From: Pseudomonadales bacterium
GTDB lineage: Bacteria; Pseudomonadota; Gammaproteobacteria; Pseudomonadales; Azotimanducaceae
Direction: 5' to 3'
Assembly: GCA_011525295.1 (NCBI GenBank)
Contig: WTGV01000032.1
Coordinates: 62,001 to 126,000, forward strand
Length of the DNA: 64,000 bases
Shown here: positions 2,822-64,000 of the stretch, in pieces
Position numbering within the stretch: position 1 is the first letter of the stretch
Layout of the letters: every line of letters begins with the position of its first letter
The notes under the pieces: generated by a model
The model's input: the letters and a program-made list of their open reading frames with translations, nothing else
Database searches by the model: none
Told to the model about the DNA's origin: nothing
Made by a program: the position numbers and the translations under genes

Positions 2822-2887
2822 CTCGAACAATCTACCAAGACTTGTTTTCGAGAAATCGTTCCGTACACATTCTTGTGATCGTATAGT

Positions 2888-4675
2888 ATGAAGAAGATTC
2901 CTACACACAGAATTCTCATCCCGATATTAAGGACATTTTCGACTATATTTGCTGGTTTGGTAATCGGAGCGTCCGCTTCCCTGTTCGTGGTTTGGATTTT
3001 TTTCAACGCAACCGAATCTGACTCGCACAAGACTGATCCAGAAAAGGATAGTAGTCAAGTGAATGTGTCGATATTCGGTGACGAATCGATCGGGGTTAAT
3101 GTGCTTTCTTCAGATGAACTTAGCTATTCAGACCTTCGCAAGTTAAGCGAGTCTTTTCGAACACTCAATCCTAGCGAACTCCAGGATTTGTTAATGCAAA
3201 GTGCTTCCCAACCGTCGACGTCAAGACTTTTCGCGTTTCAACAGATTTTGATTGAGTACTTGGTGGAGAGCTCTCCCGAGGACGCTTTAACAAGTATTGC
3301 ACAAATTTCGGACAGCCGTAGACATGCATTGCTACGCGTAATATTTGGGAATTGGTCGAAACAGAGTTTAGAACAGGCTCTGACTGCTGTAACTGAACTG
3401 TCTCACGCGGATCGACAAGTCGCCATCAACACAATCGTAGGAGCTCGTAGTGATCTGACTTTCGAAGAGTTGTCTGAATTGGTGAGCAGATTCAATTTCT
3501 CATCTGAATTGTTAAATCGAGAACAAGAACTCAAGACGTATGAGTTATTGGATCAAGAACCATTTAGAGCGATCGAATTGCTTGCCGAGGACGAAATCGA
3601 TGACAGTCAGCAAATTGAACTGTATCGGCTGATTACGGAAAAGTGGTATCAATCTGACGGCATGAGCATCATTCTTCAACTCGAAGATGCAAGACTAAGC
3701 TCGGGAGTTTTTAGTGAGCTATTTGAGCAGGTCACCGAACAAGACCGTAAAGCAGCACTTGTTTTCTTCAGTACTGTTGAGGACACTAGACGATCGTCTT
3801 TGAGTTATCAGTTGATCGATCATTGGGTCGCAGATGACGTAGACGACGCATTGCAAGCAATCAAAAGTCTGCCCCAATCGAATTTTCGTAGGTCCATGCT
3901 GAGCAGTCTTGCTTATGACTGGGGAAGGAAGGATCCTGCTACCGTATTGGACAGGTTGATGGAACTTCCACGGTCGGTTAGGGATGATGCGGTATCCACC
4001 GCAGCTGGCGAACTTGCAATAGACGGACCTAAAGACGTGCTTGACCGACTCTCATCGTTGCACGATGTTCCTGGTGCGAACTTACCCCGTGCGATTGAGT
4101 CCGTAGTAAATACTTGGGCGTCAGCTAACCCTAAACAGGCATTGGATTGGGTACAAAGCAATACAAAGAAAGGCACGTCTAGTCGTGAGCAACTGTTACG
4201 TGAGGTACTTCCAGAATTGGCACTTGTTGCACCAGAACAAGCAATGACCATAGCTGTTGACGAATTCAATCCAGCCTTCTATAACGGTTCGAACTTGCAA
4301 CACTATGTTTTAAGATCGTTATTACTTGCCGACAAGTTCGACGAAGCAATCGAATTGCTAGACCGGGTTCACGACGCTGTCAAGTTGTGGGAATATCAAG
4401 AGGTAGGCCTAGAACTCCTCGAACACAACCGTTTGGACGACACTCTAAGCTTAGCTGATTCACTTACTGACGAGGAGCAGATCGATTATTTCAATCGCGT
4501 CGTGTCCGGGGCAGTTATATTTAATCGTACGTCCGCCGTCCTAGAGCTGATTGCTAAATTGCCCACGACTGAGATGCAGGCAGGAATCGCAGAGCAACTG
4601 TTGAGTCAAGAGTATTCGGTGCGGGAATTCACAACAGAACAACTCGAAACTCTTAGAGGGTTCGTGTCGGAATAA
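2888..4675 (+). CDS. A-type membrane-anchored helical-repeat protein, copy A2
   Basis: The complete 595-residue product has an N-terminal membrane segment (about residues 9-39), then an acidic linker and a long all-helical region. Short units recur with a pattern close to W-x(3)-D/N-P-x(2)-A-L followed by LP-x(3)-R, as in alpha-solenoids. It is paralogous to A1 and A3; the ends (TTEQLETLRGFVSE here) are nearly the same. It differs from the B type in its anchor and first helical units but has similar length and layout. It starts with ATG 66 bases after B1. The regular 66-78 base gaps in the array suggest that an A-B gene pair was duplicated as a unit. Function unknown; membrane-tethered periplasmic location is inferred. 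Confidence 0.85.
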   Translation: MKKIPTHRILIPILRTFSTIFAGLVIGASASLFVVWIFFNATESDSHKTDPEKDSSQVNVSIFGDESIGVNVLSSDELSYSDLRKLSESFRTLNPSELQDLLMQSASQPSTSRLFAFQQILIEYLVESSPEDALTSIAQISDSRRHALLRVIFGNWSKQSLEQALTAVTELSHADRQVAINTIVGARSDLTFEELSELVSRFNFSSELLNREQELKTYELLDQEPFRAIELLAEDEIDDSQQIELYRLITEKWYQSDGMSIILQLEDARLSSGVFSELFEQVTEQDRKAALVFFSTVEDTRRSSLSYQLIDHWVADDVDDALQAIKSLPQSNFRRSMLSSLAYDWGRKDPATVLDRLMELPRSVRDDAVSTAAGELAIDGPKDVLDRLSSLHDVPGANLPRAIESVVNTWASANPKQALDWVQSNTKKGTSSREQLLREVLPELALVAPEQAMTIAVDEFNPAFYNGSNLQHYVLRSLLLADKFDEAIELLDRVHDAVKLWEYQEVGLELLEHNRLDDTLSLADSLTDEEQIDYFNRVVSGAVIFNRTSAVLELIAKLPTTEMQAGIAEQLLSQEYSVREFTTEQLETLRGFVSE

Positions 4676-4753
4676 GCAATGCCGACAGAGACTTGCATGA
4701 TCACTCTCGTTCTTTTAATCTCACACAGTATTGATTGATAGGTTCCGACTAAG

Positions 4754-6529
4754 ATGAAGCGTAACCGACTCGTACTTACACTTGTGAGTCTAACTTCAGG
4801 TGTTGGTCTTGGTTTTTTGATCGCATTTCTATTTTTCCCGTCGAACCAAACAGAGATGAACACTTCTCCGCAATCGACAGGTGGTATTCCATTGTCAGAG
4901 AAGACTCAAGTCAGTGAGAGTCAGGAACCAGCGCCAAACAGTCTAGCTATGGTCATTGAACTGAAGAGTCCGATAGAGCGACGTGTAGGACTATATCAGT
5001 TGGTGAATAACAAGAGCGCGGAGCAGATTACAGAATTCATCAAACAAACGTTTGACGTTGAGAACGTTCCGAGTTCGTACTTTGTGCAGCGGCTACTGTT
5101 TTCGGAATTGGCGCGGATTGACCCAGCCAAGTCGTTAGAGTTAGTGTGGGAAACTGAGCGCATTCGATGGGGACCATTACTTGACGTTGTTGCAATGCAA
5201 TGGAGCTTATTCGCACCTGATGGTGCTTTGCGAGCATTTTCGGAACTGGACGAGCCTTGGAAGAGTAGAGCACTCACTGCGGTCTTTCAATATCAAGATT
5301 CGCTAGACTTAGTCGAATTAAAGAATTTCACCCAATCCTTAAACATCACTGAAGAGTTCGTGAAGTGGACGTATGAAGAACAACTCGCAGCAGTAATAGA
5401 CGAACCACGGAAGGCGTTCAGCTTAGCTATAGAAGCCGACACTTCATATTTTCATCGACACCAGATGCTCAAGCAGATTACGAGACGTTGGGTTGAAAGA
5501 GAAGGTACAGCCGACATTAGTTCCATGTTGAGTCTCGTGTACGATATGTTTGCCGATACGAGGTTTCTGTGGAGTTCAGTGGTGAGCGAAATCGCCGCAC
5601 CCAATCCCGAACTCGCTTGGAAGCAGCTTTCATCGATGCCCCTTGAGATTCAGAAGCTATTTGCTGCCGATGTTTTCGACGAATGGGTTGAACTTGATCC
5701 AAGTGCCGCGATAGAGGCAGTCAGAACACAGGAATATGTCGATGCTATGGCGTCAGAAATGTATTCACACTTGCTAACGTGGGTTCGTGCGGTATCGGAT
5801 CGATTTCTCGAATACATTGAACTAGTACCCGAGGACTATAAGATGACTGCTATTGAGATAGCAGTTGAGCATTTGGCAAAAAGCTTACCACCCAATGAAA
5901 TAATTGACATGTTAGGCCAGTTGAGACTGCGAGGATTGAATACGCAAGAAGCAACGCATTCATTTGTGAGGGTCTGGAGCACCAAAGATCCTTTTGCGGC
6001 AGTTGAATGGGCGTCAAAGAACATGGATCAAGGACCAGGTGATGGACAGTGGATGTTGAGAACCGCGCTGGAAAAGCTTGTTTTATCCGACCCAGAAAGA
6101 GCAATGGAGTTCGCACTCAAGCAACCAGAAGAGCGTCGATTGGAAGACTTAGTGATTTACAAATTAATGGGCCAGGGAGAATTGGATAAAGGTCTTTCAT
6201 TCTTACCGCAGATTCGAGAAACATCGGGCTACCCGTTCATATACGATGGTGTAGGTTATCAACTGATCCTAGCGGGAAGGATTGAGGAGGCACTCGCGCT
6301 TGCCGATGATCTTGAGGAGTCGGAGAAACCTCAATTCTATTTCGCCTTAGCCAGACCGTGGCTCCGGTTTGAGCTTGAGTCTCTACTTGAACACTTGCCG
6401 AAATTGCCAACCGAGGAGACTAGAACAACGGTAATAAACGCTGTGCTCAGGGAACAGAATGGGTATCCATATTTGACCGCAAATGAACTGGAATATGTCC
6501 GATCTCTTAAACCCGTTGAAGCAAACTAA
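4754..6529 (+). CDS. B-type membrane-anchored helical-repeat protein, copy B2
   Basis: The 591-residue product begins MKRNRLVLTL and has one membrane segment (about residues 7-29) followed by a polar linker. The remainder is helical repeats that line up with B1 over the whole length, including the ETERIRWG and IDEPRKAF segments and SDPERAM. Its last block reads LTANELEYVRSL against LTEKESEFVRTF in B1. The simple ATG start supports placing the B1 start at the equivalent MKRKQ. It lies 78 bases after A2 and 72 before A3. A and B products may pair, since the genes alternate and have been kept in equal proportion, but this is inference. Confidence 0.85.
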   Translation: MKRNRLVLTLVSLTSGVGLGFLIAFLFFPSNQTEMNTSPQSTGGIPLSEKTQVSESQEPAPNSLAMVIELKSPIERRVGLYQLVNNKSAEQITEFIKQTFDVENVPSSYFVQRLLFSELARIDPAKSLELVWETERIRWGPLLDVVAMQWSLFAPDGALRAFSELDEPWKSRALTAVFQYQDSLDLVELKNFTQSLNITEEFVKWTYEEQLAAVIDEPRKAFSLAIEADTSYFHRHQMLKQITRRWVEREGTADISSMLSLVYDMFADTRFLWSSVVSEIAAPNPELAWKQLSSMPLEIQKLFAADVFDEWVELDPSAAIEAVRTQEYVDAMASEMYSHLLTWVRAVSDRFLEYIELVPEDYKMTAIEIAVEHLAKSLPPNEIIDMLGQLRLRGLNTQEATHSFVRVWSTKDPFAAVEWASKNMDQGPGDGQWMLRTALEKLVLSDPERAMEFALKQPEERRLEDLVIYKLMGQGELDKGLSFLPQIRETSGYPFIYDGVGYQLILAGRIEEALALADDLEESEKPQFYFALARPWLRFELESLLEHLPKLPTEETRTTVINAVLREQNGYPYLTANELEYVRSLKPVEAN

Positions 6530-6601
6530 ACCAGCCAACGAAGTTGTTCGTTACCACACGAACTTCGGTTTACCCATGAAAACATGTAGAGTTTTGATAC
6601 C

Positions 6602-8392
6602 GTGAATAGCACCTCAACTGCATCACCTGTGAAAGGACAAGCGACTAAATGCAAAGCATTGTCTTTTCCGTTATTAGGATTGACAATTGGTTTGGCTATT
6701 GGAATGGGAACATTCTTATTTGTATCGCAGTTATTCAACAATCCTGATGTGAAAGTGGAATCATCTCACTCAAAGTCAGATCTTAGTTTTTCAGGAGCAG
6801 ACAAAGACGTTGCAGGCTTAGATTGGATTTTCGGTGACGATCTCAACCATTCAGACCTCCTCAAGCTGAGTGAGTCTCTAATCGTTCTTAGTCAACACGA
6901 GCTACTCGAATTGTTAGAACGAAGTTCTAAGAAAGCTCGAACCGATAGGCTCGATACGATACAAGAAATGTTGGTTGAGTTCGTTGCTCAGGTTTCACCT
7001 AAAGAAGCTATAACAAAAATAGCGAACTTTTCAGAGCATCGAAGGCATTCACTGTTACAGGTGATATTCTCTCACTGGTCCTTAGCGAATTTTGACGAAG
7101 CTCTCGCCGCGCTAACTGAATTACCACGATCAGATAGGCGGATAGCCGCTAATGCTATCTTCGTAGAGCGGAGCAACACTTCAAGTCTAGATATCACGAC
7201 CAAAGCCAATAAACTCAACGTCAAATCTGAGTTAGTCGCGATCAAACAAGAACTTGAGATCTACGAGATGTTGGATCAAGATCCTTCAGGAGCATTCAAC
7301 ACGCTCATTAATGATGAAATCGACGACTGGGAGCAAATAGACATATATCGACAGGTCGCAGAGAAATGGTTTCAAACCCATGGAATAAGCATCGTTCTGC
7401 TAATCGACGATGCGCGGTTACGAGGAGGAGTTTTCGGGGAACTCTTCGAACAGATTACTCAAGTCGATCGTGAGGCTGCTCTTACCTTTATTAGCGGCGT
7501 TGATGAAGATACACGAGCGCGTCTAGGATATCGGTTACTCGAAGATTGGGTTGTCGCAGATGCTGAAGTAGCACTCAATGCGGTCAAGAATCTGCCTAAG
7601 TCATTTTTCCGACATTCATTGTTACGAAGCGTAGCAACGGACTGGGCTCGAGAGAGCCCCAATCTCGTAATGGATCAATTGCTGGAAATTCCAAGGTTGT
7701 ATCGTGCTGATGCTCTGTCGGTAATCGCTACTAAATTCGCCAAGGAGGATCCTGGGTACGCGCTTGAAAGAATTGAAGAATTGCGTTCGGTGCCGGGGAC
7801 AGATGTGGACCGATCTGTGGAATCCATAATTAGGACATGGTCATCTGACGCTCCAAAGCTTGCGCTTGACTGGGTTTTAACCCATGCGAAAGAAGACGCG
7901 AATAAACGGATTGAATTGTTGCGTGAAGTACTTCCAGAATACGTACTTGTTCAACCAGAACACGCGATGACCGTAGCAGTTGAAGAATTTAGCGTTGACC
8001 ATCCTTACCTCAGTCTACAGGCACTTGTCGTTAATTCGTTGCTGTACGCTGAAAGGTTTGACGAAGCGATAACTTTACTAGGCCAAGTTCAAGGTGAAGG
8101 CGAACACATCTACAGATATGTCGGGTTGGAACTTCTAAAACATGATCGATTGGACGATGTTCTCCCTCTAGCTGACTCAATCGTTGAAGGGAAGAAAGCG
8201 GAATTTTTCTATAGTCTAGCATCGAGCGCGTTGATTTACGAACATGCTTCCGATGTCATAGAAATGATTGCTGGGCTGCCCACGACCAATTTACAATTAG
8301 AAGTCGCCGAAAAACTGTTGAGTCGGAGTGGTGTGGCTCAAGAATTTACCAAAGAACAACTCGAAACTCTGAAATCGTTCGTATCGGAGTAG
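6602..8392 (+). CDS. A-type membrane-anchored helical-repeat protein, copy A3
   Basis: The 596-residue product uses a GTG start. A polar N-terminus of about 20 residues precedes one hydrophobic anchor (about residues 20-42). The helical region aligns with A2 over its length (for example the NHSDLLKLSESL, EIDD and PTT segments) and ends TKEQLETLKSFVSE. It is the last member of the array; a small hairpin and then infC follow. In Escherichia coli thrS occupies the position before infC, so in this genome the array sits in that place or follows a displaced thrS; the window cannot tell which. Function unknown. Confidence 0.85.
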   Translation: MNSTSTASPVKGQATKCKALSFPLLGLTIGLAIGMGTFLFVSQLFNNPDVKVESSHSKSDLSFSGADKDVAGLDWIFGDDLNHSDLLKLSESLIVLSQHELLELLERSSKKARTDRLDTIQEMLVEFVAQVSPKEAITKIANFSEHRRHSLLQVIFSHWSLANFDEALAALTELPRSDRRIAANAIFVERSNTSSLDITTKANKLNVKSELVAIKQELEIYEMLDQDPSGAFNTLINDEIDDWEQIDIYRQVAEKWFQTHGISIVLLIDDARLRGGVFGELFEQITQVDREAALTFISGVDEDTRARLGYRLLEDWVVADAEVALNAVKNLPKSFFRHSLLRSVATDWARESPNLVMDQLLEIPRLYRADALSVIATKFAKEDPGYALERIEELRSVPGTDVDRSVESIIRTWSSDAPKLALDWVLTHAKEDANKRIELLREVLPEYVLVQPEHAMTVAVEEFSVDHPYLSLQALVVNSLLYAERFDEAITLLGQVQGEGEHIYRYVGLELLKHDRLDDVLPLADSIVEGKKAEFFYSLASSALIYEHASDVIEMIAGLPTTNLQLEVAEKLLSRSGVAQEFTKEQLETLKSFVSE

Positions 8393-53377: not shown

Positions 53378-55126
53378 ATGATTGTTGACCCAAGCGCATT
53401 GTTGCAGGACATTCAACGCGGTGAAGATTCAGCGCTAGAATTGAAACAGGTTAAAGTTACTGACACGAAAGTCATAACACCCCATCGAGACTCGCTCGCA
53501 GACGAACTTGCTGCCTTTGGTAACGCAGATGGTGGTCGATTAGTTCTCGGAGTAACTGACGGGCGAGAGCCTCAATCTCTTACTCCATCTCAACTAGATC
53601 TACTCATTCGTTTTGTGCGTGAGATTTGCCATGATTCGATAAAACCACCTCTATCGTTTAAAGTATTCAGAGTATCTGTATTCAATGCAACAAAGGGACT
53701 GATACTCCTTATAGAGATCCCCAAGAGTGTACATGTACATGAGTCTCCCGGAGGTTTTATGGTACGTTCTGGCGATACAAAACGCAGATTAGATTCCAAT
53801 GAAGTACGTCGGCTAAGCTATTTAAGAGGACAGTCGGACCTAGGAAATTTCGACACTCAAATTGTCAATGGAACCGGAGTTGAGACTCTAGAAGCCGAAA
53901 TCTGGCAATCTTACGTTAGCTCCCGCATTGACCTGTCTAGAGACGAATTTTTATCTCGACTAAAGTTTGTCAAAGAGGATGAAGAGGGAACGTTGCGAGC
54001 GACTGTTAGTGGAGTGTTAATGGCGACTAAATCCCCTATTCAATGGTTGCCGAACGCATGGATTCAGGCGGTGAGCTATCGCGGTAACAAACGCGACGGA
54101 AAGAACCAGATTGACGTTCTTGAGAGTACGGGACCTCTTGATCGACAAATTCGAGACACAGTACGATTCGCAGTAAAAAATCGTCGAGTAGCAGCTTACA
54201 AAGATCCGGCGCGAGTAGACGTACCTCAATTTAGTGCACGCGCAATTTTTGAAGTTATCGTCAACGCTGTTGTTCACAGAGATTATTCGATATCGGGTTC
54301 GCACATCCGGATTTTTATGTTTGATGACCGACTAGAAGTCTACTCCCCAGGCAACTTATGCAATTCGATGTCGCCTGAGGATTTAAGAATCAGTCAGTTT
54401 ACTCGAAATGAGTCATTAGCAACAAGACTGGGTCAGTGTGAGGTTGGGGATGTACCAGGTGTTGGAGACCGACGGTACTTCATTGAGCGTAGAGGAGAGG
54501 GAATCGCCGTAATTGAAGATGAAACCTATGCGTTAACAGGCCAATTGCCGACCTTTGAAGTCCTCGCACAGCGTGAGTTCAGAGTGACTCTCCCTTCAGC
54601 GAGTTTGCCCATAGCGGATGGATTGGGGGTTTCTATCACGTTGATCAACGGTAAGACGAAAAAACCAATTCATGATGCGCATGTGTTAATGTTGTTCCCC
54701 AATAAGACTTGGCGAGATGCACAGACGGACATGTATGGGCGCGCCGAGTTTATTGTTCATGCACAACTACCAATGACTGTTTTTTGTGCAATGGAGGGGT
54801 TTACCGCAAACGTCGTACATGGGTATGACCCCGCAGAACCATTAATGGTCGAATTAGATCCGGTTGAAAACGGTGGATCCATGATCTTTTCCGAAAGGTC
54901 TGGTTCGTTACCTCACATCAGGGGTCGTTTAAATCCAATTTTGGACAATCTGGATCGTACGTATCTTTATGCAAACAACGTAGCTGTAAATGATGGTAAG
55001 ACGCAACCTGTTCAGTTCGTATTGAATGAACCGGTACGTTTGACTGATGCATATGGAAAGCGGGCGACATTGTGGTTTCGGGAATTCATCGGAAGTTCTT
55101 GCGTATTTGACTATACATACGAGTAA
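53378..55126 (+). CDS. AlbA_2/Schlafen-type protein with HATPase_c_4 and carboxypeptidase-regulatory-like domain
   Basis: The 582-residue product starts with an AlbA_2 (Schlafen) domain: EDSALELKQVKV, ELAAFGNADGGRLVLGV (about 12-140). An ATP-binding-like region of RecG-type regulators (HATPase_c_4) follows, with ARAIFEVIVNAVVHRDYSISGSHI and EVYSPGNL (about 290-410). The last 180 residues include a beta domain with GLGVSITLINGKTKKPIHDAHVLML and a TDMYGRAEF turn, as in CarboxypepD_reg-like folds. Such AlbA_2 proteins are annotated as transcription regulators, and some occur in defence islands. The role here is unknown. Confidence 0.85.
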   Translation: MIVDPSALLQDIQRGEDSALELKQVKVTDTKVITPHRDSLADELAAFGNADGGRLVLGVTDGREPQSLTPSQLDLLIRFVREICHDSIKPPLSFKVFRVSVFNATKGLILLIEIPKSVHVHESPGGFMVRSGDTKRRLDSNEVRRLSYLRGQSDLGNFDTQIVNGTGVETLEAEIWQSYVSSRIDLSRDEFLSRLKFVKEDEEGTLRATVSGVLMATKSPIQWLPNAWIQAVSYRGNKRDGKNQIDVLESTGPLDRQIRDTVRFAVKNRRVAAYKDPARVDVPQFSARAIFEVIVNAVVHRDYSISGSHIRIFMFDDRLEVYSPGNLCNSMSPEDLRISQFTRNESLATRLGQCEVGDVPGVGDRRYFIERRGEGIAVIEDETYALTGQLPTFEVLAQREFRVTLPSASLPIADGLGVSITLINGKTKKPIHDAHVLMLFPNKTWRDAQTDMYGRAEFIVHAQLPMTVFCAMEGFTANVVHGYDPAEPLMVELDPVENGGSMIFSERSGSLPHIRGRLNPILDNLDRTYLYANNVAVNDGKTQPVQFVLNEPVRLTDAYGKRATLWFREFIGSSCVFDYTYE

Positions 55127-55542: not shown

Positions 55543-57549
55543 ATCAGACTGACAGAAGAACTCATGCTGTTGGTGCTCGATGAACAGAGCGGATTCATCG
55601 AACTTTCAGACAGTTGGGATTTCGCATGCGTAGTCGCAGGTTCAGTGATCGCTGATTTGGCCCTAGCCTATCGGATTGATACCGACTTAGAAAAACTGCG
55701 ATTAATTGATGCGTCGCCGACTGGCGACCCAATACTCGACGAAACATTGAACGAAATCGCAGCCGAAGAGCGAGTATTCAGCACTCAATACTGGATTGAG
55801 AAGAATACGCGTAGGACCGAAAGAGTTGTCGAAGATTTGCTGGAACGATTAGTTGAGAACGACATTTTGCAGTATGAAATAGGAGGTTTTTGGGAACTCT
55901 CGAGTTCAGTCGCGAGTTCTCGTTCATATGAGAGTTCCGAAGGCGCGAGTCTTCAAGAAGCAAAATCGAGGATCTTGAATGTGATCCTGAACGACGAAAT
56001 TCCTACACCTCGAGATGTTCTCCTAATTTCGCTGCTACACAGTTGCCAATTCATGAAGTTACTCCTCACGGAAGAAGACTATCTTGAGAAATTAGATCGA
56101 ATTGAGCTACTCGCGGGAGCGGACTTAATCGGTCAGTCCATCGCCAAGTCCATTCAACAAACTTCCCTTCTTCCTCGTCCGCGCGCGAAGATAGGAATGG
56201 CCAGCATTCCTAAAGTTAAATGGCTCGACCTGTTAAGCGAGAAAGGATTTCACCGAGGCAATCTTCCATTAGGTTTGTGCGGCGTGCACAGGAAATACGG
56301 ACCTGTTATTCAGACTCCAATTAAATTTGGAAAGTCTCGTGCGATATTGATTACAGGACCGGAAGTGAATCGATGGGTCAACAAGTACGGACGTCTGTAT
56401 TTACGGACTCGAGACTACATCAATGATTTCGCGGCCGTATTTGGCGCTGCTCGAGTCATGCCGGGGATGGACGGAGCGGAACACTATCGTCTACGGAAGT
56501 CGACGCGCGCAGCTTATTCCAGAAACGCGTTGGTTCAAACTTTACCCGAACTTTATCAAATAATTCGGACTACACTACCTGAATGGGACAACAACGAAGC
56601 ACACGTTGCGGCGAAAAAGTTCTGTAACTACATGAGCTATCAAGTGGCCCATCTTTTCATTGGCGTCGATTGTGCGTCGTATGTAGACGATCTTTTGGCA
56701 TACAAAGATCGGGCACTGACGGTGCACGTGCAAAAAGCTCTTCCCAAGTGGACGTTAAACACACCAAAGATGAAGCGAGCGAGGAAACTTGTACCGAAGC
56801 TTCTCAACTCAATTAAATCTGCTCATACCCCTGCTTTACGTGAGGGGAAACCTCAAGACATCGCTGACGCGTTTATGGAACTTCATCGCCAAGATCCGCA
56901 GTTTTTGCCAGAAACTGACCTCGCGTTTCCTTTTGCAGCAGGTCTGGTCGCTAGTCTATACATGGGTAACGCACTGGCGTTTTCCATTTACAACATGATC
57001 AAGCACCCCGATGTCTATGAACGGGTTGCAGCAGAGGGCGAAGCACTGTTTGCTAACGGCGGAGTCCCAGATGCAAAAGAATTTGAAGGAGACAAAGTTG
57101 ATGTCGCTCGACGCGTATTCCTCGAATCAGAACGTCTCTATCCCGTGATACCCGTTCAGCTTCGAACGGTGATGAACCGGTGTATAGTCGCGGGAGTCGA
57201 GCTAGAACCTCGCACGCTCGTAATGATTGGACACACTGGCACCCATTACATGGAGGAATTTTTTAAGAATCCACTTGAATTCGATATTGACAGGTTTCTA
57301 CCTGGACGAGAGGAGCACTTACAAGCTGGCGTATATGTTCCATACGGACTTGGAACGCACCACTGTTTGGGTCATCGCTATCTTGAACTGCAAGCCATCA
57401 TCAATCTGCTCTTTTTCGCGTATCACTTTGAACTAGAGTTAGTTCCATCAAACTACAAGATGAGGATCAATCCTCTATCCAACTTGTCGCCAAGTAAGAA
57501 GATGAAGATTCGCGTCGCTAAGGTGAAGCATCCGATTCCGAAAGTTTGA
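55543..57549 (+). CDS. GPP34 (GOLPH3-like) domain fused to a cytochrome P450, apparent ATC start
   Basis: The product is 668 residues from ATC 55543. The N-terminal 220 or so residues match the GPP34 fold: RLTEELMLLVLDEQSG, ASPTGDPILDETL and an RxxRVVEDLLERLVENDILQ region. In eukaryotes this fold binds phosphatidylinositol-4-phosphate. A P450 follows from about residue 230, with ExxR in ESERLYP (Glu528, Arg531) and the haem Cys608 in YGLGTHHCLGHRY. The position normally Phe in that loop is Tyr. The I-helix (AAGLVASLYMGNALAF) lacks the usual acid-Thr pair, which suggests altered oxygen activation. Beside sterol genes, a sterol or lipid substrate is likely. The GPP34 part may bind membrane. Confidence 0.88.
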   Translation: MRLTEELMLLVLDEQSGFIELSDSWDFACVVAGSVIADLALAYRIDTDLEKLRLIDASPTGDPILDETLNEIAAEERVFSTQYWIEKNTRRTERVVEDLLERLVENDILQYEIGGFWELSSSVASSRSYESSEGASLQEAKSRILNVILNDEIPTPRDVLLISLLHSCQFMKLLLTEEDYLEKLDRIELLAGADLIGQSIAKSIQQTSLLPRPRAKIGMASIPKVKWLDLLSEKGFHRGNLPLGLCGVHRKYGPVIQTPIKFGKSRAILITGPEVNRWVNKYGRLYLRTRDYINDFAAVFGAARVMPGMDGAEHYRLRKSTRAAYSRNALVQTLPELYQIIRTTLPEWDNNEAHVAAKKFCNYMSYQVAHLFIGVDCASYVDDLLAYKDRALTVHVQKALPKWTLNTPKMKRARKLVPKLLNSIKSAHTPALREGKPQDIADAFMELHRQDPQFLPETDLAFPFAAGLVASLYMGNALAFSIYNMIKHPDVYERVAAEGEALFANGGVPDAKEFEGDKVDVARRVFLESERLYPVIPVQLRTVMNRCIVAGVELEPRTLVMIGHTGTHYMEEFFKNPLEFDIDRFLPGREEHLQAGVYVPYGLGTHHCLGHRYLELQAIINLLFFAYHFELELVPSNYKMRINPLSNLSPSKKMKIRVAKVKHPIPKV

Positions 57550-57613: not shown

Positions 57614-58660
57614 CTATCCGGACTCTGGCTTTCTCGCAAGGAAACAGTACAGCGGCGTGTATATACCCGACTTACCACCGGCGACATATGCATCAGCCTG
57701 TCTGTCAAGTAGCTCAATGACACGCCAGCTGTCCTTAGGAAACATACCAACAACCTCAGCCAGACGAACTCCGCCAGCAAGTGTGGATCGACCACCGGGA
57801 ACTCTGAGCCATGAACGAAGAGAGGAGGTGAGACCCTCCATCGGCTGATACCAAGACACACTAGAAGCATTCTCCACTTCTTGATCGGCCGCTTCAACTA
57901 TCTCAAATCCAACGGCTTCCAAAGCGCGGTTCACCTCTTCAAACTTGAAGAGGTCGCTCAAAGCGAGAGTGAACTTAATCTCGTCTCTGATTGCGCAGTG
58001 CTGCTCGTCTTCAAGCTCAAAAACGTTCGTTAGACACATCTCTTGACCCCAAAACAACGCTCCGGGTTTCAATACTCGAAAAATCTCTGCATAAGCACGT
58101 TCTTTATCGGGGGCGTAACAAGTTGATTCGATCGCATATCCTGCATCCAAAGAACCAGCATCAATAGAAGTCATGTCCATGAAATTGCATTTGCGATATT
58201 CAGTTAAGTGGTCGAGTCCTGTCTCAGTTGTCTTTAGTTTGGCTTTTTCTAGTTGTTGCTCATTGTTATTAATGCCAAGTACTTTTGCACCAGATTCTTT
58301 TGCAACTCTTCGCAACGGACCTCCCAACCCACACCCTACATCAATGACGTTCAGGCCTTCTCGAAGCTCTAACTTCTTGATCATGTGCCTTTGATGACGC
58401 ACGATAGCCTCTTCTAAAGTCTCATCCGGTGCAATAGGAGCGAAGTGCAAGGATTCGTTCCAACCAAATTGCATCAATTCGGTAAATAGATCGTAGTATT
58501 CGCTAACGGTCTCAGTGTGATCGTACGTGTCATCCTGTGTCTTGGCTTGTTCACGTCGTTCTAGCCAGCTTTCATATCGTTTCAAACTGTCAGAAACATT
58601 TAAGTCGCCAAACGATTCGCGCAGGTTCTTGGGAAGTTTCAACAAATCAGAGGGTTTCAT
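57614..58660 (-). CDS. Sterol C-24 methyltransferase-like protein (ERG6/SMT family)
   Basis: The 348-residue SAM-dependent methyltransferase contains YYDLFTELMQFGWNESLHFAP (55-75), the sterol-binding region I of ERG6/SMT. The SAM motif VIDVGCGLGGPL (105-116) follows, then GINNNEQQ (NNxYQ-like), and YAIESTCYAPDKERAY, close to the yeast YAIEATCHAP block. These are specific SMT landmarks rather than general methyltransferase features. It would transfer methyl from SAM to C-24 of a sterol side chain. It has ATG and converges on the P450 gene. Bacterial SMTs are known but rare. Whether it adds one or two methyls cannot be read. Confidence 0.9.
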   Translation of the reverse strand: MKPSDLLKLPKNLRESFGDLNVSDSLKRYESWLERREQAKTQDDTYDHTETVSEYYDLFTELMQFGWNESLHFAPIAPDETLEEAIVRHQRHMIKKLELREGLNVIDVGCGLGGPLRRVAKESGAKVLGINNNEQQLEKAKLKTTETGLDHLTEYRKCNFMDMTSIDAGSLDAGYAIESTCYAPDKERAYAEIFRVLKPGALFWGQEMCLTNVFELEDEQHCAIRDEIKFTLALSDLFKFEEVNRALEAVGFEIVEAADQEVENASSVSWYQPMEGLTSSLRSWLRVPGGRSTLAGGVRLAEVVGMFPKDSWRVIELLDRQADAYVAGGKSGIYTPLYCFLARKPESG

Positions 58661-58761
58661 GGGATCGGAGTTAACTCATCAGCTAGAGCTGACATCAAAG
58701 AACTGGTGCTGCCTCAAGTCGAAAACTCGCACACTAACGAAATTCATGTATTCTTCGACAA

Positions 58762-59559
58762 TTACGAGTCTATATCGTCGAAGTTTTCTATCAACCATTG
58801 CTTCATCTTATGCAAGTTCCGACCAAAGACAAAGTAGTGGTTTGAATCGTCAGTAACAATTTCCGCCTGAGGGATCTTTTCAATTACACGTTCTGTTTCC
58901 TTTGGATAAATGATCTCGTCCTCTGTCGAGTAGATAACTAAAACTTTATCGGGAAGGGAGTCGAGTTTCTTTCGAGTGTCATACTTATGCCGCACCACAA
59001 AACGCAAGGGGACCATGCGCAGTACACTGCGATTTGCCACGTGCGCCAACGAACGAAAAGGGCTGATGAGAATCAATCCAGCAATGTTCGAATCCACGAT
59101 ACGTATAGCCACGGCACTCCCGATACTATCGCCCATCAATATTACCGGACGATCGGGGAATCGATGTCGTACCATTTGAAGAGTGATCTTGGCATCGGCG
59201 AGAGCAGTTTTCTCGGACGGTCTGCCATCGCTCTTTCCGTGCCCGCGATAGTTAGGTAGTACAGCGGGAACCTTCAGTCGATCCAGCGCGTGCGTATATC
59301 CCACAGAATCTTCCTTTCTGCCGGCAAAAAAGAGGAGCACAGGACCGGGTGCAGACTCATTTACGATGTAGCCTCGAGACTTGATACCTCTTTTTTCATC
59401 AACAACAATCTCATATTCGACCGACGAACGCGCGGGCATTCTGTCTTCATCAGTGACGGGTCGGTATATGACTAGTCCTTGGATACCCCACAAGACTGCA
59501 CAGACCAGTAAATAAAGTTTACCCAAGGCTCGCCCCAACTGTCTCAGTTTGCGTCCCAT
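58762..59559 (-). CDS. Membrane-anchored alpha/beta hydrolase (BEM46/ABHD-like)
   Basis: The 265-residue product has a hydrophobic N-terminal segment (about 13-32) followed by an alpha/beta hydrolase. It has NYRGHGKSDG, nucleophile Ser in MGDSIGSAVA, probable Asp in YSTEDEII and His in DSNHYFVFG. Such enzymes hydrolyse esters or thioesters of membrane lipids. It lies about 100 bases upstream of the SMT gene on the same strand and may share its transcript. A role in sterol ester handling is a guess from location. Confidence 0.88.
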   Translation of the reverse strand: MGRKLRQLGRALGKLYLLVCAVLWGIQGLVIYRPVTDEDRMPARSSVEYEIVVDEKRGIKSRGYIVNESAPGPVLLFFAGRKEDSVGYTHALDRLKVPAVLPNYRGHGKSDGRPSEKTALADAKITLQMVRHRFPDRPVILMGDSIGSAVAIRIVDSNIAGLILISPFRSLAHVANRSVLRMVPLRFVVRHKYDTRKKLDSLPDKVLVIYSTEDEIIYPKETERVIEKIPQAEIVTDDSNHYFVFGRNLHKMKQWLIENFDDIDS

Positions 59560-60198
59560 AGGACCTCACTTGTTGAATTGTGTGTTTTAACTATCACTTG
59601 GACTGTATGAAGTGCAGTTTGTTTTAGGATTGATTGGTGTGCACTGATTCTAAGTAAAGTAAGCATAAATTTCTCTGTTGTGTCAACGTATCGCGTTGTC
59701 GTTTCAGGCGAGCACGCGAATTAACAAATATCACGGAGTCTAAGCACTTGTTATGAGAGTAAAATACTTGATTAAAATAAACAAATCGCCTACTGGAAAC
59801 GCAGTCTTGAACAAAAAAACGATGTTGGGTAAGTTTGAGTTCATGAATTGTGTACACAACCTTGAAGACGAAGTAACCTAACGTTTCTAAGCTAGACTGA
59901 CGTCTTTGGGACGATTCAATTTTTGATGGACAAGCTCGCGTCGTTGATGTTAAAAGTAGTGTTGAACTTCTGATTCTTTTTGAGCGAGTTGAACTTCACG
60001 AACCACCTTACAGAAAGAACATTCAACTGAGCGTTGCGGGTGTTCTCTTACCATGTAGCAATGACTAGAACCAGACATTCTTCAATGACGATCGCATCAG
60101 TAGATTTGGTATTTAGTCTAATTCGATGTCTAGTCCCCAACGCTTAATGATTTCGATGATAAATGAACTGGATTGAAGTGGATAGGAGCTGCGATTAG
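59560..60198. other. Long intergenic region between divergent sterol-locus transcripts
   Basis: This 639-base region separates the leftward hydrolase-SMT pair from the rightward sdmB-like operon and should contain both promoters. It includes the palindrome at 59848. A 77-codon minus-strand frame here lacks any protein-like features. No RNA gene was recognised. Confidence 0.4.
59848..59859. promoter_or_regulatory. Perfect 12-base palindrome TTGTGTACACAA
   Basis: The dyad is perfect and lies between the two divergent transcripts of the sterol locus. The half-site TTGTGT/ACACAA is typical of a dimeric regulator site. No regulator gene is nearby, so the role is unproven. Confidence 0.35.
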
Positions 60199-61299
60199 GT
60201 GGAGTCTTCGTCAACACCCGTTCTTGTGACGGGTTCATCTGGCCATGTGGGCGCAAATCTTGTGCGTCGACTCATCCGGGACGGTATTAATGTACGGGTC
60301 CTGTTGCGACGCGATTTCAGAAACGAGGCTTTGGAAGGACTCGATGTGGAACGAGCTTATGGAGATATCCGAGACCTCGATTCGACACGACAAGCGATGG
60401 CCGGCTGCCAGTCAATCTATCATTGCGCGGCGAAGATATCAACGATTGACGGGAATCTGGCTCACAAGCGAGAAATCTTTGAATGCAATGTTCTCGGGAC
60501 CCGTAATGTGCTTCAGGCCGCGCGGGAAACCGATGCGGGTAGGGTGGTTGTGACCGGATCCTTCAGTGCAGTTGGGTACGACCTAGACGATCCCTCTGCC
60601 CCGAGCGACGAGACTATGCAGTTCTATCCCATGGAACGAACTATGCCTTACGAACGAAGCAAGGTGCTCGTAGAACATGAATGTCTAAAGGCGGTCGCTC
60701 TCGGTCAGGATGTCGTCATCGCGACATGTTGCGCGGTAGTGGGCGGAGCGGATTATCTTCCCTCACGACTAGGCACTACGCTCTGCAAATACACCAGTGG
60801 TAAGGTCCGCGCGTACGTGGACGGGGGATTTGCATTTGTTGCCGCTCGAGACATTGTCGAAGGACATGTGTTGTGCATGCATAAGGGTCGTACCGGGCAT
60901 AAATACATCTTTGCGTCAGAGTACAAAACGATATCGGATATTCTGGATTTATACGAGGAGGTGTCGGGTATACCTCGACCACGCCGTCGTATTCCTACTC
61001 CTATAATGTATGTCTTTTCTGAAGTAGCTAGCTTCTACTTGAGCCGTTTTCACCCGAACTTTCAGCAACGCTTCACTCCGGGCGCAATACGTCTACTCAA
61101 AAAGAGAAGACACGCTAGTATAGACAAGGCGAAACAGGAACTTGGGTATCAACCAACGAGCATTCGCGACGCGGTGCAGGAAGCATACGAATTTCACTAC
61201 GCACGCGGCTCCATTACGAACCCCCGCGCTCAGCGCCCAGTAGTTAGCCTCGAATCAACGGATGAAATACGAACCAAGGATGGAAAACAGACTTCATGA
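60199..61299 (+). CDS. NAD(P)-dependent 3-beta-HSD/epimerase family reductase, SdmB-like
   Basis: The 366-residue short-chain dehydrogenase has TGSSGHVGANLVRR (11-24, Rossmann), YGDIRD and YHCAAKIS segments, and the catalytic Tyr151-x3-Lys155 in YERSK. It belongs to the extended 3-beta-hydroxysteroid dehydrogenase/epimerase type. In Methylococcus, SdmB of this kind works with the Rieske enzyme SdmA to remove one C-4 methyl from sterols. The next gene, an overlapping Rieske oxygenase, gives the same pairing. It starts with GTG and is the first gene of the operon. Confidence 0.85.
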   Translation: MESSSTPVLVTGSSGHVGANLVRRLIRDGINVRVLLRRDFRNEALEGLDVERAYGDIRDLDSTRQAMAGCQSIYHCAAKISTIDGNLAHKREIFECNVLGTRNVLQAARETDAGRVVVTGSFSAVGYDLDDPSAPSDETMQFYPMERTMPYERSKVLVEHECLKAVALGQDVVIATCCAVVGGADYLPSRLGTTLCKYTSGKVRAYVDGGFAFVAARDIVEGHVLCMHKGRTGHKYIFASEYKTISDILDLYEEVSGIPRPRRRIPTPIMYVFSEVASFYLSRFHPNFQQRFTPGAIRLLKKRRHASIDKAKQELGYQPTSIRDAVQEAYEFHYARGSITNPRAQRPVVSLESTDEIRTKDGKQTS

Positions 61300-62405
61300 T
61301 TAACGGAAATAATCGTCCTCCACCCAAATTTGAAGAAGCTACTCGATTGCGCCAACAAGCGCGTGCCTCGGGTATGGACCCGAATTACTGGTTTGCAGTC
61401 GAGGAAGTACGTCGCATCAAACCAGGGTCCGTAGTGGAAATAGTTTTCTGGAAACACTCAATCGCACTCTTTCGGACCAAAAGCGGAGAGTTTCACGCCG
61501 TTGAGAATCGCTGTGCCCATCGCCAGATAAAGCTTTCTTTAGGTAGCGTTGAAGATTGTCGCCTAGTTTGCGCGTACCACGGCTGGGAATACGATGGTAG
61601 TGGTCGATGCGTTGAAATTCCGCATGATCGATTTGGTCGAAGCTTTCCGAAACTCACCCTGAAGACTTACCCGGTCAAGGTACGGTACGGCTTGGTTTGG
61701 TTGTTTCCGGGAGATCCCAAGCTGGCAGAACAGCAACAGATTCCGGAAATCCCCGAACTCGAAAGCCCGAAACCATGGACTTGCGTGCCTTTGGCGTACA
61801 CCTGGTCGGCTCATCACTCAATGGTAATTGACAATGTCAGTGACTTTACGCACGCGCACTTGCATAGACGTTATCGACCCTTTGATGGTGCCGACTTGAC
61901 GCGATGCGAAACGATTGACGACCGGGTTCACGTGGCTTACGATTCAAACGTCGGTCGTGGAAAAATTTCGGGTCGCTTTGTCGAACACGACAAGATCAAC
62001 ACCAGTCACATAGAACTTTGCTACGAATATCCATATCAATGGTCCAATACCGATGATTGGATCAAGCACTGGTTGTTCTTGCTCCCCATAGATGAAAGAA
62101 CCACTCGATGTTTTTTCTTGTTCTACTTCAAATCCCTGAAGATTCCACTGCTGCCTCTGCGGATTCCGCGTTTTGCGATGAAATTCGTTATGAAGACTTC
62201 AAATCACTTTCTGATCGGGCCACTGCTTGATCAGGATCGATCCGCGGTCGAAGCGGAACAGATAGCATATGAGCAACATTGGGACGCGCCGCTAGTGGAA
62301 CTGAATCCAGCAGTAATTGCGTTCCAGAAGCTCACTGTACAGAAGTGGCGCGATTGCCTAGAACGTGAACAGAAGACAGAACCAATCGCTCGATCCAGAG
62401 GCTAG
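61296..62405 (+). CDS. Rieske non-haem iron oxygenase, SdmA-like sterol C-4 demethylase component
   Basis: The 369-residue product has a Rieske domain with Cys73-His75 (CAHRQIKL) and Cys92-His95 (CAYHGW). The mononuclear iron region is DNVSDFTHAHLHRRY (from residue 179), with Asp183 and nearby histidines as likely ligands. It resembles the SdmA/DAF-36 class of sterol oxygenases more than aromatic-ring dioxygenases, since it has no partner beta subunit. It should oxidise a sterol methyl, with the SdmB-like protein doing the decarboxylation or reduction. The start overlaps the previous stop (ATGA). Confidence 0.87.
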   Translation: MINGNNRPPPKFEEATRLRQQARASGMDPNYWFAVEEVRRIKPGSVVEIVFWKHSIALFRTKSGEFHAVENRCAHRQIKLSLGSVEDCRLVCAYHGWEYDGSGRCVEIPHDRFGRSFPKLTLKTYPVKVRYGLVWLFPGDPKLAEQQQIPEIPELESPKPWTCVPLAYTWSAHHSMVIDNVSDFTHAHLHRRYRPFDGADLTRCETIDDRVHVAYDSNVGRGKISGRFVEHDKINTSHIELCYEYPYQWSNTDDWIKHWLFLLPIDERTTRCFFLFYFKSLKIPLLPLRIPRFAMKFVMKTSNHFLIGPLLDQDRSAVEAEQIAYEQHWDAPLVELNPAVIAFQKLTVQKWRDCLEREQKTEPIARSRG

Positions 62406-62407
62406 TC

Positions 62408-63478
62408 ATGGTGCTCACTAGCAGTTCAATGTTACAAGCGGTGTTAGCGGTCATCGGTTTCCTCGCTTTTCTCATTGTTGGATCCATACTACTTCCAGGG
62501 CGAAGAATTGAACGGGCGCAAACTGGAGGTGTTCCCCGAATCTTCAAATTGAATGGACTAGCGTTGTTTCTCACCACTGCACTCGTAGTAGGTATCTGCC
62601 AGGCGATGAGTTGGTTTTCGTTATCGTTTCTATACAACCACTTTATCGCGCTGCTCATTTGTGCAAACGTTCTTGCGTTTGCGCTCTCGGGTTGGTTATA
62701 TTGGCGAGGTTCCCCTGATCCAGATGCTTCAAAGGGATTCCTGCAGGGATTTTTCTTCGGAAGAGAACTTAATCCGGGCATACTCGGAATGGACCTGAAG
62801 TTCTTCAGCTATCGCCCGTCATTGATAGCACTAGCGCTTTTCAATGTCTCGTTCGCAGTCGCGCAGTACGAGATTTACGGCGAACTGTCTCTTGCGATGA
62901 TTCTTTATCAGATCTTCACCTTTGCGTACGTATTCAATTACTTTCAGTTCGAGTATGGGATGGTCCACACTTGGGACATCGTAAGCGAACGATTCGGTTG
63001 GATGTTGGTTTGGGGAAATTTTGTTCTGGTTCCGTTTTTCTATTGCGTCGCTGGCTTGATATTGGTGCACGCCGAAGGAGACTTGTCGTTGTTTTTTGCG
63101 ATATTTCTTGGCGTTTTGTACGTGTTCGGTTTCTGGTTGTTCCGCGGGGCTAATGAGCAGAAACACCGCTTCAAACAGGATGAAAATACCATGATTTGGG
63201 GACGTCCAGCCGAGACTTTGGATGGACGATTACTCGTTTCGGGATTTTGGGGCATCGGTCGGCATCTCAACTACACGGGCGAGATTTGTGTTTATTTAGC
63301 ATTTGTTCTCACGGTTGGCTTCGAGTCTTGGATTCCCTATTTGTTGCTAGTCTGGTTAGTAGGGTTGCTTTGGCATCGGTCGTGGCGCGACGAAAGACGA
63401 TGTCGTAAGAAGTACGGCGAGCTCTGGGATCGATACGTCGAGCGCGCGCGCTTTTCGATGATTCCTTTCGTTCACTAA
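62408..63478 (+). CDS. Sterol C-14 reductase-like membrane protein (ERG4/ERG24 family)
   Basis: The 356-residue protein has about nine membrane helices. The C-terminal half carries the family signature: HTWDIVSERFGWMLVWGNFV, VPFFYC, LLVSGFWGIGRHLNYTGE, and HRSWRDERRCRKKYGELW near the end. It would use NADPH to reduce the delta-14 double bond left by CYP51. The gene order next to a CYP51 fits this better than the C-24(28) reductase role of ERG4, though sequence alone cannot exclude that. It lies two bases after the Rieske gene and eight before the P450. Confidence 0.88.
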   Translation: MVLTSSSMLQAVLAVIGFLAFLIVGSILLPGRRIERAQTGGVPRIFKLNGLALFLTTALVVGICQAMSWFSLSFLYNHFIALLICANVLAFALSGWLYWRGSPDPDASKGFLQGFFFGRELNPGILGMDLKFFSYRPSLIALALFNVSFAVAQYEIYGELSLAMILYQIFTFAYVFNYFQFEYGMVHTWDIVSERFGWMLVWGNFVLVPFFYCVAGLILVHAEGDLSLFFAIFLGVLYVFGFWLFRGANEQKHRFKQDENTMIWGRPAETLDGRLLVSGFWGIGRHLNYTGEICVYLAFVLTVGFESWIPYLLLVWLVGLLWHRSWRDERRCRKKYGELWDRYVERARFSMIPFVH

Positions 63479-63486
63479 GACTCATC

Positions 63487-64000
63487 ATGGTTGACCAGTT
63501 ACACGAAGCAAATTTCACCGGTCAATTTGACGGTGACGAAGTTCCTGAGCTATCAGGCGGGTGGCCAATCCTTGGTCATTTAAGGGAATTTCAGAGAGAC
63601 CCCGTTTCAATGCTCTTGCGCGGATGCAAGGAGCATGGCGACCTGTTTCGCTTTCGGATTGGTCCGGCCGAGTTCGTCTTATTCAGTGGGTTAGAAGCGC
63701 ACGAGACATACTTCAAAGCACCGGACGATCAACTTGATGCTAACTCGGTCTATCAGTTTACCGTACCTATTTTTGGACGCGGAGTGGCCTACGACGTCGC
63801 GCCCGAAATTATGACGGAGCAACTGGGATTTCTTTTTCCTGCTCTTCGAGAATCTGCGATGCGGAGCTACGTGGCGATCATGTATGACGAGGCGCGTGTC
63901 TTTGCGGATCGGATGGGTAGTGAAGGAACGTTGGATCTGCCTGTGGCGATGAACGAACTTACGGTGAATATCGCAAGTCGATGCTTCCTAGGGGAGGAGA
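63487..64000 (+). CDS. cyp51: Sterol 14-alpha-demethylase, CYP51 (3' truncated by window edge)
   Basis: The visible 171 residues match the CYP51 N-terminus: SGGWPILGHLREFQRDP, HGDLFRFRIG, then VYQFTVPIFGRGVAYDV (B-C region, with the conserved Tyr and GxGVxYD). ELTVNIASRCFLGEE ends the visible part. CYP51 oxidises and removes the C-14 methyl of lanosterol-type sterols. It is the fourth gene of the operon, ATG eight bases after the reductase. Its haem-binding end lies outside the window. The match is much closer to CYP51 than is the GPP34-fused P450. Confidence 0.9.
   Translation, partial: MVDQLHEANFTGQFDGDEVPELSGGWPILGHLREFQRDPVSMLLRGCKEHGDLFRFRIGPAEFVLFSGLEAHETYFKAPDDQLDANSVYQFTVPIFGRGVAYDVAPEIMTEQLGFLFPALRESAMRSYVAIMYDEARVFADRMGSEGTLDLPVAMNELTVNIASRCFLGEE

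Follow-up and report, generated by a model that had tools for sequence, protein, structure and literature searches.

Does a sterol methyltransferase (SMT) gene that lies beside sterol-demethylation genes in a bacterium serve the sterol pathway of that bacterium, or does it belong to something else? This question is raised by the end of a 64,000-nucleotide stretch of DNA from a bacterium of the Pseudomonadales (positions 62001-126000 of contig C2, from an assembly of 2.53 Mb that is 94% complete), which we call the window. The original prediction had described here a bacterial locus for C-24-alkylated, demethylated sterols and had taken the SMT homologue in the window, named SMT1 in this study, as the C-24 SMT of the locus. 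From our analysis we think it rather probable that two gene sets have been merged at this place. One of them (set A) is an operon for de novo sterol synthesis, which continues past the end of the window and has a second SMT gene (SMT2) behind it. The other (set B), to which SMT1 would belong, would be a mobile sterol-tailoring module, acting on imported sterols in hosts having no cyclase. The gene content, the linkage, the clade structure and the domain assignments described below are direct observations.

Three kinds of sterol methyltransferase

SMT1 (57614..58660, minus strand) possesses a methyltransferase domain together with Sterol_MT_C, and its PF08498 score was 52.9 bits against a cut-off of 21.7. 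SMT2 (approximately 68321-69316, minus strand, past the window; 331 aa) possesses the same two domains (PF08498, 73.3 bits) and has a Tyr residue in region I. A third SMT-like gene is located on contig C30 of the same genome (L058:6573-7610); its relatives in four genomes of genus g1 (L074-L077) lie close to a gene for an alpha/beta hydrolase.

A tree was calculated from 118 rows (112 different), consisting of SMT rows only and including two reference sequences entered by hand. In this tree one clade of 96 rows, with a support of 100/100, united the 91 rows of SMT1 with five rows of the third SMT, the latter being the sister. SMT2 and its eight relatives formed a separate clade (100/100), and six Tyr81-type SMTs of genus g1 formed another (100/100). 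The support of the deep branching order was 66/22.

The residue Tyr81 (yeast numbering) has a role in the product control of SMTs. At this position Met was found in all 91 rows of SMT1 (87 distinct), Tyr in all nine rows of SMT2 and in all six rows of the g1 clade, and Ala in all five rows of the third SMT and its relatives. That is, SMT1 does not have the aromatic motif YE(Y/F)GWG with Tyr81 in region I, and it departs from canonical SMTs in region IV as well. Judged from these sequences, SMT1 is not a canonical SMT, and the canonical Tyr81-type enzyme is SMT2, which lies past the window. The assignment of SMT1 as the C-24 SMT of the locus is thus not upheld: SMT1 stands in a clade of its own, occurring mostly in genomes without a detected cyclase. 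Its substrate is nevertheless probably a sterol, either self-made or imported.

Among the SMT1 rows, one from a gammaproteobacterium (L146) is placed inside Gemmatimonadota, and two from genus g1 (L040, L045) stand beside Chloroflexota. These placements point to transfer between phyla; misassignment of bins may also be their source.

The sterol operon

The genes of set A are arranged on one strand in the order SdmB, SdmA, ERG24-like, CYP51 and fused epoxidase-cyclase, with SMT2 behind them on the opposite strand, tail-to-tail with the cyclase gene. The five genes on which the original prediction was based (SMT-like, SdmB-, SdmA-, ERG24- and CYP51-like) were confirmed by the reading of the open reading frames of the window. 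They are open frames lying where, and in the order in which, they had been placed; each has Pfam support, and the Sdm pair was assigned by best NCBIfam match. The SdmB-like gene (60199..61299, plus strand) encodes a putative NAD(P)-dependent dehydrogenase of C-4 demethylation, and the SdmA-like gene (61296..62405, plus strand), overlapping it by 4 bp, encodes a putative Rieske oxygenase of the same process (Rieske Pfam score, 78.5 bits). The best NCBIfam matches were SdmB (296.8 bits) and SdmA (407.8 bits), respectively; both are below the curated cut-off of 600, and the two proteins are regarded here as homologues only. The next NCBIfam model for the SdmB-like protein was a hopanoid-associated epimerase (232 bits). 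The gene of the ERG24-like sterol C-14 reductase (62408..63478, plus strand; Pfam ERG4_ERG24, 229 bits) is the single PF01222 match in the genome, and a search of the phage collection with ERG24 gave zero matches. The CYP51-like sterol 14alpha-demethylase gene starts at 63487 on the plus strand, reaches the window end at 64000 and goes on to approximately 64872. Its full frame of 461 aa had a Pfam p450 score of 183 bits, against 34.6 bits for the fragment cut by the window.

Past 64 kb, the reading gave the remainder of CYP51, then a gene in which squalene epoxidase and oxidosqualene cyclase are fused, and SMT2. The epoxidase and the cyclase, which the original prediction had left to be sought in the rest of the genome, are therefore present as one gene, which starts 4 bp after CYP51 (frames from approximately 64877 to 68361, plus strand, past the window); one frame of 1025 aa holds both the SE and the SQHop_cyclase domains. 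With TIGR03463, the model of oxidosqualene cyclase, this frame scored 608 bits (cut-off 851), against 208 bits with that of hopene cyclase; the former value is under the cut-off because the frame is cut short. It also carries the DCTAE motif (HGWPVSDCTAE). The model scores and this motif rule out a hopene cyclase. One squalene synthase gene was found, on contig C33 (best NCBIfam match TIGR01559, 112 bits, under the cut-off of 287). One gene away from it we noticed by eye a 765-aa frame of an MMPL-like transporter (L059:5562-7859).

The sterols of this bacterium had also been expected to be close to eukaryotic ones. This expectation is not supported, as an EBP-family isomerase was not found in the 94%-complete genome, where PF01222 has its single member; ERG2-type isomerases were not searched for. 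The genome has three FA_hydroxylase matches, two of which are at contig ends. The nearest named relative (L118) is titled Gammaproteobacteria.

Linkage of SMT1 with a GOLPH3-P450 fusion

Two genes of the window that adjoin SMT1 had not been mentioned in the original prediction. One is the alpha/beta hydrolase gene (58762..59559, minus strand; Pfam Hydrolase_4), which adjoins SMT1 also in five g1 relatives and in three of 80 named loci, these being close relatives. The other (55564..57549, plus strand), a recurrent neighbour of SMT1, encodes a fusion protein, in which a GPP34 (GOLPH3/Vps74-fold) domain occupies approximately residues 1-200 and is followed by a cytochrome P450 (Pfam match, residues 392-648). 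The GPP34 domain and the GOLPH3/Vps74 fold of the N-terminal half were confirmed by Pfam and by fold comparison (PDB 3kn1, 2zih); when the GPP34 half was searched by itself against PDB sequences, there were zero matches. For the P450 half, the closest PDB sequences were CYP51 and CYP46A1, and both ExxR and the haem-ligand Cys are invariant in 60 fusion rows (55 distinct). Searches of open-licence PMC papers aimed at such a fusion gave no description of it. Upstream of the fusion gene, a protein resembling Schlafen AlbA_2 and RecG-C is encoded at 53378-55126.

In order to clarify how regularly the two genes occur together, we used 80 SMT1 loci, the best 80 of 549 relatives in a scan of named species genomes. 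By record title, which stands here for taxonomy, these loci come from ten phyla, four loci having no phylum. The fusion was within the flank in 56 of the 80 loci, in eight of the ten phyla. While 36 loci are shorter than 20 kb, the other 44 are at least 20 kb, and among these 44 the fusion was found in 33, a KshA-like Rieske protein in 31, an RND/MMPL transporter in 29, a flavoenzyme in 13 and a cyclase in one. With another clustering rule, the values for the Rieske protein, the transporter and the flavoenzyme in the same 44 loci were 29, 35 and 13. The Rieske representative has a KshA_C domain, and its best PDB match was KshA. The flavoenzyme is of the amine-oxidase type, and one of the MMPL representatives gave scores with Patched and sterol-sensing models. 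Reductases of PF01222 were found in the flanks of five of the 80 loci, two of them inside a set-A cluster and three outside.

A similar association was seen in the 195 genomes around the window: the fusion was matched in all 25 genomes with PF08498 and in five of the 170 without it, one of the five (G134) by the P450 half only, although the p-value of this contrast is inflated by relatedness. Counted by genus, the co-occurrence was 4/4 (g1, g7, g33, g37). By our own arithmetic, the chance that a gene present once or twice in approximately 3.5 Mb lies within 10 kb of a given place is about 1%. A chance clustering of the window genes was ruled out, as relatives have the same neighbours.

Several observations were made beside this. 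The transporter near the window is of the AcrB-type RND. Reductases of the ERG4/ERG24 family lie near SMT1 in Chloroflexota and Dadabacteria (two in tandem at L171:16461-18870; L185; L192:4646-5785). One 13-kb stretch of another phylum (L148:1-13223, Nitrospirales Plut_88904) resembles the window, containing sterol cluster genes, an SMT2-like gene, the flavoenzyme, the Rieske gene, SMT1 and the fusion. Ten of the 80 loci have the jk18x prefix, which two bin names link to Ircinia from the Caribbean (PMC9531527); the prefixes p16x, COS, IRC, RHO, APA, SB06xx and MPN may likewise be those of sponge projects.

Proposed roles of the two gene sets

From the gene content we infer the substrates, the order of the reactions, the source of the sterol and the part played by the GOLPH3 domain at the membrane as follows. 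In set A, the fused epoxidase/cyclase would convert squalene to a lanosterol-type sterol, CYP51 and the ERG24-like reductase would remove the C-14 methyl, SdmA and SdmB would remove the C-4 methyl(s), and SMT2 would alkylate C-24. Set B would take up a sterol or steroid, which would be self-made in the window genome and imported in cyclase-less genomes. The side chain of this sterol may be methylated by SMT1, and the sterol may be oxidised by the P450, held at the membrane via the GOLPH3 domain. The Rieske and flavin enzymes would act on the ring or the side chain, and the RND/MMPL transporter would move the sterol across the envelope.

The import of sterols by cyclase-less hosts is quite possible, though we would stop short of calling it probable. 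Somewhat more tentatively, we speculate that set B is a horizontally spread island, present in eight phyla and composed of the Met81-type SMT, the GOLPH3-P450 with an unusual oxygen-activation site, the KshA-like Rieske protein, the flavin oxidase and the RND/MMPL transporter, by which symbionts that make no sterol import those of the host and give them alkylated, oxidised side chains. Such an island could supply some of the unusual sponge sterols, including precursors of fossil biomarkers that are now assigned to animals. Whether the host or the symbiont makes the sponge sterols with odd side chains bears on the reading of C30 sterane fossils. In the papers cited here, symbiont SMTs have been viewed mainly with regard to de novo synthesis. 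If genomes without a detected cyclase share a conserved module, a further route would be added, by which bacteria of many phyla alter the sterols of their hosts, and the module names concrete enzymes for expression.

Genomes without a detected cyclase and alternative explanations

The cyclase was searched for in 49 of the 80 SMT1-bearing genomes, with a limit of E 1e-10. A cyclase of at least 50% identity was absent from 37 of them: 12 genomes had matches of at least 63% identity, 12 had only matches of 25-37%, which is the range of hopene cyclase, and 25 had none. CYP51 of at least 63% identity was found in ten of the 49, every one of which is among the 12 cyclase-bearing genomes. Two cyclase-less loci are on records titled as chromosomes (G236 and G240). 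The former (L187) is from a Dehalococcoidia genome with the whole module, and the latter (L192), from Dadabacteria, has SMT1, Rieske, MMPL and an ERG4/ERG24-like reductase. Provided that the substrate is a sterol, such hosts must obtain it from an external source.

These results bear on the explanation that SMT1 and SMT2 are ordinary steps of the bacterium's own pathway, performing the first and the second side-chain methylation, with the GOLPH3-P450 as a late enzyme such as a side-chain desaturase. In its favor, the window genome and G011 have all the genes contiguous, as does G008 as far as its contig reaches, which ends within the cyclase; an SMT1-type (class-A) SMT is present in all 11 cyclase-bearing g1 genomes; and a metagenome-assembled genome (MAG) of Sandaracinus is reported to have two functional SMTs in one sterol cluster (PMC10070321). 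However, SMT1 and the fusion occur without a detected cyclase in three g1 genomes (G002, G007, G013) and in genomes of g7 and g37, and the 37 named genomes mentioned above likewise keep SMT1 without the cyclase. We therefore regard this explanation as unlikely.

Somewhat less likely still, the SMT1 clade might methylate another prenyl or triterpenoid lipid (hopanoid, polyprenol or carotenoid-like), the lipid of the module being unrelated to sterols. The divergence of SMT1 from canonical SMTs in regions I and IV would fit this, as would the matches in the hopene cyclase range in 12 of the 37 cyclase-less genomes. On the other hand, the other 25 had no cyclase match at all at the limit of E 1e-10, PF08498 scored over its cut-off in SMT1 and matched in none of 14 control genomes, and the neighbours are KshA-like, Patched/sterol-sensing-like and, at the three loci outside set A, ERG4/ERG24-like. 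That the wider module breaks down host steroids by KshA-type catabolism, SMT1 being a side recruit, is very improbable: the Rieske partner does resemble 3-ketosteroid 9alpha-hydroxylase, divergent KshA clusters have been reported from sponge MAGs (PMC5790920) and one neighbour family (6 loci) looks acyl-CoA dehydrogenase-like by eye, but among nine widespread neighbour families scanned the Rieske protein alone was a known steroid-degradation enzyme, and a side-chain methyltransferase makes little sense in breakdown.

Returning to the merger of a sterol operon with a tailoring module, we must consider several points that weigh against it. The sterol specificity of SMT1 is suggested by family resemblance and by neighbours. 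Most of the cyclase-less genomes are MAGs in pieces, which may miss genes. In genus g1, the Tyr81-type leans to cyclase-bearing genomes (11/11, against 1/7 of the others), which supports the two sets, but the SMT1-type does so as well (11/11 against 3/7); counted within the 11 of the Tyr81-type is an SMT2-like gene with a Tyr81-type region I and a broken frame (L057, G003:C35; longest frame 180 aa). Exceptions to the link of the Tyr81-type with the cyclase are G001 (78% complete) and, outside the genus, G049 (genus g33, 96% complete), which have a Tyr81-type SMT, SMT2-like in G049, and no cyclase match.

The linkage is also incomplete. The fusion is absent from the flank in 24 of the 80 loci, including all five of Dadabacteria (L192 among them) and all four of Acidimicrobiia/Sva0996, and seven of the 44 longer loci have none of fusion, Rieske and RND. 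Three genomes (G029, G060, G081) have the fusion and the KshA-like Rieske but no PF08498 gene, and no Rieske partner was detectable in the window genome. In favor of the linkage, SMT1 distances correlate with those of the fusion (r 0.75; 59 loci, some duplicates) and of the Rieske protein (r 0.81; 41 loci, some duplicates), but these correlations were made without species-tree control.

Two further points concern the enzymes themselves. In canonical P450s the I-helix has an acid-alcohol pattern with Thr. This pair is missing in the fusion: the window protein reads AAGLVAS, and Ala463, placed by eye at the usual position of Thr, is invariant. Ordinary hydroxylation by this P450 is therefore uncertain. 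In set A, the cyclase frame of this assembly changes near its 3' end in a short G run (L003:12841-13020, approximately window 67841-68020), while G011, G014 and G006 each have the gene as an uninterrupted frame; the change may be genuine or may stem from the assembly. The predicted bacterial demethylated-sterol locus with SMT genes is thus supported in part: epoxidase and cyclase are present, but in this assembly the frame of the latter is interrupted close to the 3' end.

Far from the sterol genes, at 1037-8392 of the window, four successive genes encode proteins of 591-596 aa, which by eye have a similar membrane segment at the start; the two of them that were scanned gave zero Pfam matches.

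Comparison with known systems

One of the closest known systems is the msb locus, found in a gammaproteobacterium that lives as a symbiont in the sponge Melophlus; it consists of msbA (NAD(P) oxidoreductase), msbB (Rieske), msbC (reductase), msbD (C-14 demethylase), msbE (fused epoxidase/cyclase) and msbF (SMT) (PMC7074536). Compared by description, its gene content and order are the same as those of set A, and in both cases the squalene synthase is elsewhere. Its ends differ: the genes flanking msb, as far as described, are unlike sterol genes, whereas SMT1 and the GOLPH3-P450 lie upstream of set A. The clusters of steroid genes (CSGs) in symbionts of Ircinia, known from many phyla, also agree with set A in having a core of ERG24, CYP51 and cyclase preceded by a DFR-like gene (SdmB) and a hypothetical gene (SdmA), and followed by SMT or FDFT1 on the opposite strand (PMC9531527). 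Enriched steroid genes, including SMT, are often scattered in Ircinia symbionts (PMC9531527). Moreover, a study of 2023 reported that bacterial SMTs, some of them from clusters of this type, act on sterols in vitro as alkylating enzymes, 24-isopropyl products being formed by three; they occur in sdmA/sdmB clusters in sponge symbionts and in other settings, 13 of 24 with a cyclase and 11 without (PMC10070321).

Because the gene content and order match msb and the CSGs, and because the function of bacterial SMTs has been demonstrated since 2023, the sterol cluster described here is a further case of an already published sponge-symbiont type, and the headline of the original prediction is largely known. 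Its argument for novelty, that bacterial sterol producers lack SMT, has been overtaken by these clusters and by the alkylation in vitro.

The GOLPH3-P450/SMT module differs in this respect: the searches of open-licence PMC papers that bear on it gave no report of it. The combination of GOLPH3-P450, Rieske and RND was not found in the description of the Ircinia CSGs, and P450, Rieske and transport are absent from the main text of the SMT study (PMC10070321), unlike in the module. A partial likeness is seen in BstA of Methylococcus, an MMPL/RND transporter whose gene lies beside sterol genes (PMC10942540). By description, some transporters of the module are MMPL proteins like BstA, whereas the one near the window is AcrB-type. 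Finally, GOLPH3/Vps74 (PDB 3kn1, 2zih) has the same fold as the N-terminal half of the fusion protein, and here this fold is fused to a bacterial P450.

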